Source: Hellea sp. | GTDB taxonomy: Bacteria > Pseudomonadota > Alphaproteobacteria > Caulobacterales > Maricaulaceae | DNA: 64,000 bases | Assembly: GCA_029250925.1 (NCBI GenBank) | Contig: JAQXEH010000012.1 | Span: 20,438 to 84,437 of the forward strand | Direction of reading: 5' to 3' | In this document: piece by piece, positions 41,176-46,177 of the stretch | How the letters are laid out: each line of letters begins with the position of its first letter | How positions within the stretch are numbered: the first letter of the stretch is position 1 | The notes under the pieces: generated by a model | Seen by the model: only the letters and a program-made list of their open reading frames with translations | Database searches by the model: none | What the model was told of the DNA's origin: nothing | Position numbers and translations under genes: made by a program

Positions 41176-44010
41176 TCAACCATATGCATCGTAATGGTGC
41201 GTTATGGCTACAGTTATTTGTCTGACAAGATCTCCAGCTCTCTCTAAAGGTTTTATTATTGACTCAGATATATGCGGAAAACCACCTGTCGGAGCTACTG
41301 GCTCATTAGTTTTCTCTTGTAGCTGTTCTGTCCATTTCAATGCAGATCTTGTTTCCGGGTACCGATCTTTCAATTCTTTGATAATACTGTCTATTTGGAA
41401 TGTCTGTAATTTTTGCAAAACATTTATTGGTGAGCTACTTTCTTCACCAGCAGCAGGTAATTCAGTTACTATTATCATCATTTTCATAATAATAGATAAT
41501 CTAAGTGCATGTAAAATCTCCAAATCTTCATTATTGCGCTTATCAATAGTATTCATTTTATCCTCAAAAAACTTGATAGAATTATAGGAATCTATTCGTA
41601 ATAGATTGGCTAGATCCATTATTTGTGAGCGCCAAGAAAGTGACCTTAGGGTTGCAGCCACTGCCAAGCTCTTTTTTTCCAATCTAGGTTCGTTACCTGA
41701 AAGACCTCTGCTAACCCAAAACCCAGGGTCAAATAGACGGCCGTAAGCACTCAATATTGACATATTTGTGCGTTCTAATGAGCTCATTACCATCGAGAAA
41801 ATTGACCTTGCTCTAGCCGACGCTTGATAGTGATTTGAAAATTTTTCAATATCAATAGAGACTGCTTTCCCAATACCGAAAAAAATATTTGCAGGTACCC
41901 CAAACTGTTGTAAAATTGCATTATGTGGTATGGCACGAAGTTGTCTGGGATCAAACATGCCCGCATTTGATTTCGATCTTTTGGATGCTCTAGAACCTGT
42001 TGGTATAAGAAGGTTTTGCCCAAACCCTGACAGTAGCTTTATGTAATTTGGATCATTATATAGATTCTCTTGTTGGGAGCTTATTGTTCTAAATACGTCC
42101 CATGAAAAATCAGTATCTTTGTAAAATATATCATTATCAGCATCATCTTTTTTAGTATAGCGTGCTTTTAGAAGAGAACTCATGGTAGCTTTTGCTAGCT
42201 CTTTAGTTTGGAACCACATAAAACCATCACCACCCTGAAAGCTTGTTTCGTGACAGACAGGTAACAACCGTTTTTCAAATTGTCTCATTGCCCAGGGACT
42301 CATGACATAATTTACTCTATCTATTACAGAGCCTGGATGCCCACCTCTTCCAAAACTTTCCCCATGAGTATTAAATATAACGGCAGTTACGTTTTTAATG
42401 TCAAATTTTTCGATTTGTGATGCAAAATGAGAGTGCAGACGTTCGATTGCTAAGGTTGCTGGTATTTGCCCCATAAATCTACCAGCATCTGAAAAACCAG
42501 TTTGAATAGCAAATACGCCTCTATCTTTAATGTAATTTCTATAAACTTCATTGCTCAACATTTTACCAATTATACGGCCCCCATTATTTAAGGCATCTGC
42601 TGTTTCAAATAATGGTGAAATATCTAAATGTTTTTCAATTCCATACCTTTTAGCTAAATAAAGCATTCCCATAGGCGTCAAACTATCTTCACATTCAGCA
42701 ATTAAAAGCCTTATGGGCGTTTCATCATCAATATATTTGTGAATTTGCGCAGTTAGTATCATTTTTTCGTGTGCTGTTGACTTTTCTAATGCTAACGAAC
42801 CAAAGTTTACAGGTTGGACTTTCACATTTTTTGTTAGTTTAGAAGCCCTTAGTAGCAAGGTTCGTTTATCTGATGTATGATCGGTTATACCAAATGTTGA
42901 TTTTAGGGCAGAAACAACATGTTGATTGTTTAAACGGAAATGAATTCTAGCTGTACCAAGACCAAAAGCGACCATTTTTGATCGTAAACAAATTAATTCC
43001 TTATTGAGTTCAAATACTTTATTGTTTTCAATGATCTTATTTATAAGTTCTATAGGACTTTTCAGATTTAGGAAACGCCGGGTAGATGCGCGTGTAAGGT
43101 TATTTGCAGCATCTACAAGCTTTTCTGGATTTGTTATATCTTTTTCAAACAGAGTTAAATCTCTCTCAGCACTTTCATGCGCATCTGACATCTTTTTTAA
43201 AAGTTCAATTAAGTTAGTGTTTTTATCTAAACTTTTACTATATTTGTTGCTCATAATTGAGATTGTTTCTTTATATCTAAAAAGCTGATCTCTTTTTTCT
43301 TGAAGTCTTAGCCTTAAAGCATCCCCCCAACTTATGTCTGTTCTACCGTCAATATCATACCCTACCCAACTATATGCGTTTATTAAGTGAGGGGTTATAG
43401 ACTTCCAGTTATTTGGAAAAAATTTTTCACTTACAATAACAATACTACTGTTTATATTATCTAGCTCAATTTGAATTCTTTCAAGCGTTTCTTGTGTATC
43501 CTCATGTTCTTCTTTAAGTGTAGGAGCACGTTTAGGTAAATAAGGGAAATTTTTTAATTTCTCTACTGAACTGGTATATTTGTTGTCTGCACTACTAGCA
43601 ATTTCACCCAAACAATTGCGAACATCACGTGACAATGAAAATGTTGGGTGAGCTGTAAGGACTATTCCAATTCCAGGGTTTTCTGCCCAGCTCTTAAAGG
43701 CTTTAAAACCTTCTTTAGCTTTTTGGTATGCTATTTTTTCGAGTGATTTATTTATTTCATTATCACCGCAAATACCAGCCCTTTTCCGTAACCTACGGCT
43801 TCTGTGAATTGCTGATTTGTCAGATATTGATTTGATTAAACTCTCTATATCTTTGAAAGCTATAGCACGGTCTTCAATGTCTTTTGAAAGATCATAAGCT
43901 AGCAGCTTTATTGAGTTAGATTGCGGATCATAGTTTTTATGATTTCTATACTCGATTAATTTTGTTTTTAATTGAGAGTTTAGTTCTTCTGGTGTTCTTC
44001 TACGGGTGAT
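41176..44010 (-). CDS. ppc: Phosphoenolpyruvate carboxylase; N-terminus extended beyond the ORF track to a proposed ATC start (44010-44008)
   Basis: In-frame extension includes GIGIVLTAHPTFSLSRDV (catalytic His motif); downstream IQTGFSDAGRFMGQIPATLAIERL and FNTHGESFGRGGHPGSV. SD AAGGAG at 44023-44018. Confidence 0.82.
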   Translation of the reverse strand: MTRRRTPEELNSQLKTKLIEYRNHKNYDPQSNSIKLLAYDLSKDIEDRAIAFKDIESLIKSISDKSAIHRSRRLRKRAGICGDNEINKSLEKIAYQKAKEGFKAFKSWAENPGIGIVLTAHPTFSLSRDVRNCLGEIASSADNKYTSSVEKLKNFPYLPKRAPTLKEEHEDTQETLERIQIELDNINSSIVIVSEKFFPNNWKSITPHLINAYSWVGYDIDGRTDISWGDALRLRLQEKRDQLFRYKETISIMSNKYSKSLDKNTNLIELLKKMSDAHESAERDLTLFEKDITNPEKLVDAANNLTRASTRRFLNLKSPIELINKIIENNKVFELNKELICLRSKMVAFGLGTARIHFRLNNQHVVSALKSTFGITDHTSDKRTLLLRASKLTKNVKVQPVNFGSLALEKSTAHEKMILTAQIHKYIDDETPIRLLIAECEDSLTPMGMLYLAKRYGIEKHLDISPLFETADALNNGGRIIGKMLSNEVYRNYIKDRGVFAIQTGFSDAGRFMGQIPATLAIERLHSHFASQIEKFDIKNVTAVIFNTHGESFGRGGHPGSVIDRVNYVMSPWAMRQFEKRLLPVCHETSFQGGDGFMWFQTKELAKATMSSLLKARYTKKDDADNDIFYKDTDFSWDVFRTISSQQENLYNDPNYIKLLSGFGQNLLIPTGSRASKRSKSNAGMFDPRQLRAIPHNAILQQFGVPANIFFGIGKAVSIDIEKFSNHYQASARARSIFSMVMSSLERTNMSILSAYGRLFDPGFWVSRGLSGNEPRLEKKSLAVAATLRSLSWRSQIMDLANLLRIDSYNSIKFFEDKMNTIDKRNNEDLEILHALRLSIIMKMMIIVTELPAAGEESSSPINVLQKLQTFQIDSIIKELKDRYPETRSALKWTEQLQEKTNEPVAPTGGFPHISESIIKPLERAGDLVRQITVAITHHYDAYG

Positions 44011-44021
44011 TTTAATGCTCC

Positions 44022-45032
44022 TTAAAGAAACTTTGACATTTCAGAAGCTGTGTCTAGCATTCGGTTAGAAAAACCCCACTCATTATCGTACCAGCTTAAA
44101 ACCCTGATTAACGATCCGTCTATTACTACTGTCTCGCCAGCGATAAGACTTGATGAATGCGGGTCATGATTAAAATCAATAGAAACTGTTTTATCATCAA
44201 CCACTTGTAAAATATTTTTCAATGTTCCTTTTTCAGCAATTCTAAAGCTGTTTAATATATCGCTTATTTCCACAGTTTTTTCGAGATTTACAGTAAAGTC
44301 AACAACAGAGACGTTAGGTGTAGGTACACGTATAGCCTTACCATCAAGTTTTCCTTCTAGTTCTGGAATTACCAGCCCTATAGCGCTGGCAACGCCAGTG
44401 GATGTTGGGATCATCGACATGGCTGATGCTCTACCACGATTAAAATCTTTATTATGTATTGTATCAAGTGTTGGCTGATCGCCAGTGTAAGCATGTATAG
44501 TTGTCATAAAGCCATTTTTTATACCAAAAGAGTCGTTTAGAACTTTTGCTATCGGAGCTAATGCGTTTGTTGTGCAAGAGCCGTTAGAGACAATCTTATC
44601 ATTCGCGCTTAATTTTTTATGGTTAACACCATATACGATTGTTTTGTCGGCACCAGCGCCTGGTGCTGAGATTAAGACACGCTTTGCCCCCGCTTTTATA
44701 TGATCAGCAGCTTTATCTCTATGGGTGAATATTCCTGTGCACTCCATTACAATATCAATGCCATCATTAGACCAATTCAAATCTTCAAGATTACGCACGG
44801 ATGAAACATTTATTTTCTTTCCATTTACTTTTAAGGTGTCACCTTGGCTCTCTATGTGTCCATTGAACCGACCATGTACAGAGTCATACTTTAAGAGGTG
44901 CGCTAAATTATCCGTTTTAGATAGGTCATTTACTCGCACTATTTCAAAGTCTCTATTATGATTTTCTTCTAAGGCGCGTAATATATTACGCCCAATCCGC
45001 CCAAAACCATTAATAGCAATTCTAATAGTCAT
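44022..45032 (-). CDS. gap: Glyceraldehyde-3-phosphate dehydrogenase
   Basis: IRIAINGFGRIGRNILRAL; SNGSCTTNALAPIAKVL; WYDNEWGFSNRMLD. Confidence 0.97.
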   Translation of the reverse strand: MTIRIAINGFGRIGRNILRALEENHNRDFEIVRVNDLSKTDNLAHLLKYDSVHGRFNGHIESQGDTLKVNGKKINVSSVRNLEDLNWSNDGIDIVMECTGIFTHRDKAADHIKAGAKRVLISAPGAGADKTIVYGVNHKKLSANDKIVSNGSCTTNALAPIAKVLNDSFGIKNGFMTTIHAYTGDQPTLDTIHNKDFNRGRASAMSMIPTSTGVASAIGLVIPELEGKLDGKAIRVPTPNVSVVDFTVNLEKTVEISDILNSFRIAEKGTLKNILQVVDDKTVSIDFNHDPHSSSLIAGETVVIDGSLIRVLSWYDNEWGFSNRMLDTASEMSKFL

Positions 45033-45051: not shown

Positions 45052-45092
45052 TGACAGCGCTGTCATATTATTAAAACTGGGGTATTATGCAA
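45052..45092 (-). promoter_or_regulatory. Candidate gap promoter with perfect LacI-family-type operator palindrome
   Basis: TGACAGCGCTGTCA at 45052-45065; minus-strand -35-like TTGCAT (45092-45087), 16-nt spacer, -10-like TAATAT (45070-45065). Confidence 0.6.
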
Positions 45093-45205: not shown

Positions 45206-46177
45206 ATGACTCAAAATATAGCTATTGTTGGTGCAGGAATCTCTGGTCTTTCTGCAGCTAGAAAACTTATCGAAAAACATAATGTCATAATATTTGATAA
45301 GTCACGCGGTGTTGGCGGTCGAATGTCTACTAGATACTCAGAATCATATGAATTTGATCATGGGGCTCAATATTTTACAGCAAAAGATGAACGTTTTAAA
45401 GTGTTGCTGTCTTCAGAAACTTTTGAGGATGTAATTAAGCCATGGGACTCACGAGCCTTTTATAAAAAAGAAAATAAGCTAATCCCTGATACTGGAGGCT
45501 TTAGATACGTTAGTCAGCCTAGAATGAATAGTTTTACAAAAAAACTTTCAAAAGGTTTGAACATTTCTCTCAACTCTAACGTCTCTTTTATTCATAGAGA
45601 TAAGAAAAAATGGGTTATAGAAACTGCGGATGGTAAGGTTTATAGAGATTTCGATTTCGTTATTTTAGCTCTACCTAACGAACAAGCAATATCTTTAATG
45701 CCAACCGAAACTGAATACTATAACAAGGTACAAGAAGTTGAAATGGACCCTTGTTTCGCACTTATGGTCGGTCTCAAAAAAAAATATGATTTTGGCTGGG
45801 ATAGTTTACGATTGAATAATAATATTAATTCTTGGTTGGCAGTTAATAGCTCTAAACCTGGGCGCTCTCATGATCAGACTGCTTTAGTAATTCACAGTGC
45901 GGTTGAGTGGTCGAAGAAAAACATAAGTAGTGATATAACTTGGGTGCAAGACCAAATGGAAGCAGCTGCTAGCAAAACCTGTGGTATTGATATATCAGAA
46001 GCGCACCACAAAGTAATTCACCGGTGGATGTTTGCATCAGTTAGCAAACCGTCAAATGAGGGGTGTTTTTATGATCATTCACTTAAAATTGCTACATGCG
46101 GTGATTGGTGTAATGGAGGAAGAGTGGAGGGAGCATACATTTCAGGGTTAATGGTAGCTAAAATAATTGAGGAATAA
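45206..46177 (+). CDS. FAD-dependent amine oxidase/renalase-like oxidoreductase
   Basis: NIAIVGAGISGLSAARKLIEKHNVIIFDKSRGVGGRMSTR; HGAQYFTAKDERF; C-terminal CGDWCNGGRVEGAYISG. Confidence 0.9.
   Translation: MTQNIAIVGAGISGLSAARKLIEKHNVIIFDKSRGVGGRMSTRYSESYEFDHGAQYFTAKDERFKVLLSSETFEDVIKPWDSRAFYKKENKLIPDTGGFRYVSQPRMNSFTKKLSKGLNISLNSNVSFIHRDKKKWVIETADGKVYRDFDFVILALPNEQAISLMPTETEYYNKVQEVEMDPCFALMVGLKKKYDFGWDSLRLNNNINSWLAVNSSKPGRSHDQTALVIHSAVEWSKKNISSDITWVQDQMEAAASKTCGIDISEAHHKVIHRWMFASVSKPSNEGCFYDHSLKIATCGDWCNGGRVEGAYISGLMVAKIIEE

Follow-up and report, generated by a model that had tools for sequence, protein, structure and literature searches.

The 14-bp palindrome TGACAGCGCTGTCA upstream of gap in Hellea sp. 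is, with high probability, the operator of a GluR-type LacI-family global carbon regulator encoded on another contig (C49), which is predicted to repress gap-ppc by covering its transcription start and to hold it in one regulon that connects the use of beta-glucans with Entner-Doudoroff glycolysis and gluconeogenesis. Regulons of this type are already known in alphaproteobacteria. The features of the region lie in a 64-kb stretch of DNA (64,000 nucleotides, the whole of which is referred to as the window) and are as follows:

41176-44010, minus strand: ppc, coding for a PEP carboxylase (Pfam PF00311) of 944 aa if translation begins at the ATC at 44010; it is probably second in the operon, with adjacency to gap kept in relatives.
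44022-45032, minus strand: gap, coding for a type I glyceraldehyde-3-phosphate dehydrogenase of 336 aa (NCBIfam TIGR01534, above cut-off).
45052-45065, no strand assigned: predicted LacI-family operator TGACAGCGCTGTCA, present in six exact genomic copies and kept before gap in relatives.
45065-45070, minus strand: putative -10 hexamer TAATAT, a weak match.
45087-45092, minus strand: putative -35 hexamer TTGCAT, at a spacing of 16 bp.

The palindrome at 45052-45065 is perfect and has a central CG, as an earlier note on this DNA had stated, and it is separated from the gap ATG at 45032 (minus strand) by 19 bp, one less than the 20 given there. No other position in the window matches it with fewer than three mismatches. 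LacI-family operators are typically even palindromes centred on CG (PMC4052901), and the site combines these properties with a position near the promoter of its target. The palindrome very probably functions as a binding site for a sugar-responsive repressor. The promoter TTGCAT-N16-TAATAT, which had been described as abutting the palindrome, stood only in part. Both hexamers and the 16-bp spacer are present, with the palindrome on the minus strand beginning at the final T of TAATAT, but the hexamers match the consensus at only 3/6 (TTGCAT) and 4/6 (TAATAT) positions, and a consensus promoter scan did not include the pair among its listed promoters. A promoter before gap is nevertheless plausible as a prediction, because the relative G001 reads TATAAT at the position of the -10 hexamer. 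Downstream, gap and ppc are separated by only 11 bp, compared with about 386 bp suggested by the ORF list, since the open frame of ppc extends to 44010. This short distance indicates that the two genes likely form a single transcription unit, and their adjacency was kept in the nine relatives examined.

A single 14-bp palindrome in 64 kb is not decisive by itself, and it might have arisen by chance or be bound by an unrelated factor. The genome of this strain (G000; 1.84 Mb in 88 contigs) was scanned for sites and for LacI-family genes, as the earlier note had proposed, and the scan recovered six exact copies of TGACAGCGCTGTCA, compared with about 0.003 expected from the base or dinucleotide composition of the window. 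All six were located upstream of carbon genes or of a lacI gene:

Exact site 1: before gap-ppc, in the window.
Exact site 2: before the lacI-family gene on contig C49, about 126 bp upstream of the lacI start.
Exact site 3: before zwf-pgl-edd-glk, directly downstream of the C49 lacI gene; this operator contains the lacI stop codon.
Exact site 4: before a Na+/solute symporter gene with a GH3 glycosidase gene.
Exact site 5: before a TonB-dependent receptor gene beside tryptophan-halogenase-like genes.
Exact site 6: before a GH16 glucanase gene.

Two further sites with one mismatch were found, one about 155 bp before gap2-pgk-fba and the other about 170-180 bp before ppdK. At two mismatches there were eight sites, six of which fell within unrelated coding sequence, while one preceded the paralogous lacI gene on contig C39 and one a peptidase gene. 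No site with up to one mismatch was found at pykA, gnl-gfo or sucABCD in this genome. This distribution is what genuine operators against a low background would be expected to show. As a control, the letters of TGACAGCGCTGTCA read backwards gave no copies across the 61 genomes searched. Together with the coherent functions of the targets and the conservation of the site in relatives, this enrichment leaves a chance palindrome or an unrelated factor with a negligible probability, and a chance origin was ruled out by the genome-wide counts and the reversed-letter control. The earlier note had assigned lower glycolysis and anaplerosis to the regulator; the set is much wider and takes in the Entner-Doudoroff operon, genes for beta-glucan uptake and hydrolysis, gap2-pgk-fba and ppdK.

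A second GAPDH gene heads the gap2-pgk-fba cluster, which has its own conserved near-operator (L021 1177-4422, G000:C78). The two genes suggest separate glycolytic and gluconeogenic GAPDHs for gap and gap2.

The genome contains two LacI-family genes, both on contigs other than that of the window, in agreement with the earlier note, which saw none in the window. The first, at G000:C49:10243-11262 on the minus strand, codes for a protein of 339 aa and lies directly upstream of zwf-pgl-edd-glk. It is flanked by exact operators, one upstream of the gene and one between lacI and zwf. The protein carries a LacI helix-turn-helix domain (PF00356) and a periplasmic-binding-like sugar-binding domain (PF13377), both above cut-offs. 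The exact operators at this gene and the conservation of the site at gap support in the main the reading of the palindrome as a LacI-family operator.

The second LacI-family gene, on contig C39, offers another candidate for the protein that mainly binds TGACAGCGCTGTCA, since it belongs to the same genome and a related operator, TGACAACGTTGTCA, is located upstream of it. However, exact copies of the motif are concentrated at the lacI-zwf locus on C49, and TGACAACGTTGTCA, the site of C39 itself, differs from TGACAGCGCTGTCA by one base in each half-site. In Hellea balneolensis and Robiginitomaculum antarcticum, moreover, both operator types stand near each other, with the AACGTT type before the paralogue. 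The proximity of the two types in these relatives suggests that the C49 and C39 proteins have separate specificities, and C39 is thus very unlikely to be the main regulator at gap, although it could bind there as well. In the Hellea genome, TGACAACGTTGTCA is a perfect palindrome located between the C39 lacI gene and a divergent GH3-like gene (L023 2916-5538, G000:C39), and the neighbourhood also contains an MFS transporter gene and xylose genes.

Footprinting upstream of gap, the other check that had been proposed, covered the 14 nearest gap orthologues (at least 68% identity) from Hellea and other Robiginitomaculaceae. In 9 of the 14, the site was conserved no more than 70 bp from the start, eight times exactly and once with a single mismatch, and in the site-bearing genomes the palindrome was the main conserved block of the upstream alignment. 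The site was missing in the remaining five, G003, G004, G008, G009 and G017, of which all except G004 keep the regulator. The intergenic region is shared with a divergent gene for an FAD-dependent oxidoreductase at 45206, with the operator 140 bp upstream of it, so the site might mainly serve that gene instead of gap. In G006, G014 and G027, however, the exact site has kept a position 20-55 bp from gap even though the other neighbour has changed or is not divergent. A role mainly at the oxidoreductase gene is therefore highly improbable, and this candidate was ruled out by synteny.

Conservation was also observed at the other members of the set. Among relatives whose orthologue of the C49 protein has at least 50% identity, at least 10 carry the exact operator just before zwf on the lacI side, including H. 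balneolensis DSM 19091 and R. antarcticum, and the operator contains the lacI stop codon in G000, G005 and G001. Nearly all of the relatives examined have retained the gap2 site (TGTCAGCGCTGTCA); the beginning of a divergent reading frame overlaps with it, and coding constraint may account for part of its conservation. The ppdK site was kept at varying distances, as TGACAGCGCTGTCT or TGACACCGCTGTCA 134-182 bp upstream, in this genome and several relatives. Elsewhere in the family, exact sites precede pckA, pyk, pyc, glk (glucokinase) and sugar transporter genes, with the pyk site seen in G027 only. When a genome was counted as regulator-bearing if it had a zwf-linked LacI or a LacI with at least 50% identity, 15 of the 61 genomes had both exact sites and the regulator, 3 had sites only, 1 had the regulator only and 42 had neither (Fisher p ~2e-10, without correction for kinship). 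For the 14 nearest gap orthologues, the gap site taken alone showed no association with the regulator (7, 2, 4 and 1 in the same order, p = 1). Only the whole-genome set of sites tracks the regulator, and not the gap site by itself.

In G009 and G003 (L067 and L068, respectively), the LacI orthologue is kept but is not adjacent to zwf and has no sites nearby, while both genomes retain near-operators at gap2 and ppdK. They may have a shrinking regulon or a motif that is changing.

Three non-orthologous LacI-type global carbon regulators, GapR, PckR and GluR, have been predicted in alphaproteobacteria (Ravcheev et al. 2014, PMC4052901). In gene context, the nearest known system is GluR, a predicted LacI-family regulator of Caulobacter (CC2053; PMC4052901). 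The two systems share the LacI family, a regulator gene beside zwf-pgl-edd-glk, palindromic sites before both this operon and the regulator gene, and ppdK among the targets. They differ in that the Hellea lacI gene lies upstream of zwf, whereas the LacI gene at the Caulobacter loci examined lies downstream of glk, with TGACAACGTTGTCA before zwf. The core of the Hellea operator is AGCGCT and that of the Caulobacter sites AACGTT, and the Hellea targets also include gap-ppc, gap2-pgk-fba, GH16 and a TonB receptor. In a tree of LacI proteins, those of Robiginitomaculaceae formed one clade (100/97), but the branches joining it to the Caulobacter clade were weak. For this reason, the C49 protein is named GluR-type here, and the label of a strict GluR orthologue was not adopted.

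GapR of Rhodobacterales, which judging from lineage and targets would be the same protein as that later studied as CceR, is similar to the Hellea regulator in being a global LacI-family switch of glycolysis and gluconeogenesis; its predicted or observed targets include gap, pckA, pyc, pyk and fba (PMC4052901, PMC11323563). Such targets also appear across the family of Hellea. By contrast, GapR/CceR is reported to be non-orthologous to GluR and to have a different motif; here it is set against the Hellea regulator by description. Among solved structures, CcpA of Firmicutes is closest to the C49 protein and has a similar DNA-reading helix, but it belongs to another phylum and controls another regulon. 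No earlier description of the regulon in Hellea was found in a literature search that covered few subscription journals.

From these findings and general knowledge of the LacI family, a mechanism can be proposed. When a glycolytic signal is lacking, a dimer of the C49 protein would bind the operator across the gap-ppc transcription start and block initiation, and a sugar or sugar phosphate derived from incoming glucose or beta-glucans would release it. For CceR, a passage in PMC5507952 that cites Imam et al. (2015) gives 6-phosphogluconate as the reported effector. Further targets of the C49 protein would be the lacI gene itself, the Entner-Doudoroff operon and the genes for beta-glucan use (TonB receptor, GH16, GH3 and Na+/solute symporter). 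From more distant upstream operators, the protein probably activates gap2-pgk-fba and ppdK or modulates them in another way.

We infer the repression of gap-ppc from the position of the site. Regulators of related type can be dual, as has been predicted for PckR (PMC4052901) and indicated for CceR by mutant proteomics in Paracoccus (PMC11323563), and the C49 protein might accordingly activate gap-ppc instead. However, the site covers the expected transcription start, downstream of the -10 hexamer, where bound LacI-family proteins normally repress, and activation at gap-ppc is unlikely. The sites 130-180 bp upstream of ppdK and gap2-pgk-fba, in turn, would suit activation or a second mode, like that of the dual PckR and CceR.

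It has been proposed that GluR arose from local regulators through regulon expansion (PMC4052901), and the beta-glucan genes in the Hellea regulon fit this proposal. With somewhat less than even confidence, we suggest that in Hellea and its relatives a local regulon for beta-glucan (laminarin-type) use and the global control of glycolysis, anaplerosis and gluconeogenesis are brought together under one LacI-family regulator, that repression of gap-ppc and activation of gap2-pgk-fba would form the switch, and that this regulator represents a living intermediate on the path proposed for GluR, which starts from local beta-glucoside regulators. Beta-glucan breakdown would be linked to central carbon flux via one switch, and the Hellea regulon may serve as a test case for the growth of a local sugar repressor into a global one. 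For a marine alphaproteobacterial lineage that is uncharacterised, the analysis also provides a candidate regulator together with its operator and a coherent regulon, and it would extend the LacI-type central carbon regulons (GluR, GapR/CceR, PckR) to Robiginitomaculaceae.

The ppc gene of the window has two further features. No in-frame ATG, GTG or TTG was found between the preceding stop codon and the catalytic TAHPT motif, and the ATC at 44008-44010 (minus strand), located 7 nt after AAGGAG, is the likely start. In a comparison of loci L285-L298, the codon aligned to it was ATC or ATT in ten genomes from three genera (G000, G001, G004-G008, G010, G014 and G028), GTG in G017, and ATG in G003 and G024. 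The gap-linked ppc thus appears to start at AUC or AUU in these ten genomes. For a gene of central carbon metabolism, this would be a rare type of start codon that has been conserved, comparable to those of infC and pcnB. In addition, the PEP carboxylase encoded at 41176-44010 is divergent: its score against the Pfam PEPcase profile is only 72 bits, and the PPCs detected elsewhere in the order, in other families, share about 32-37% identity with it.
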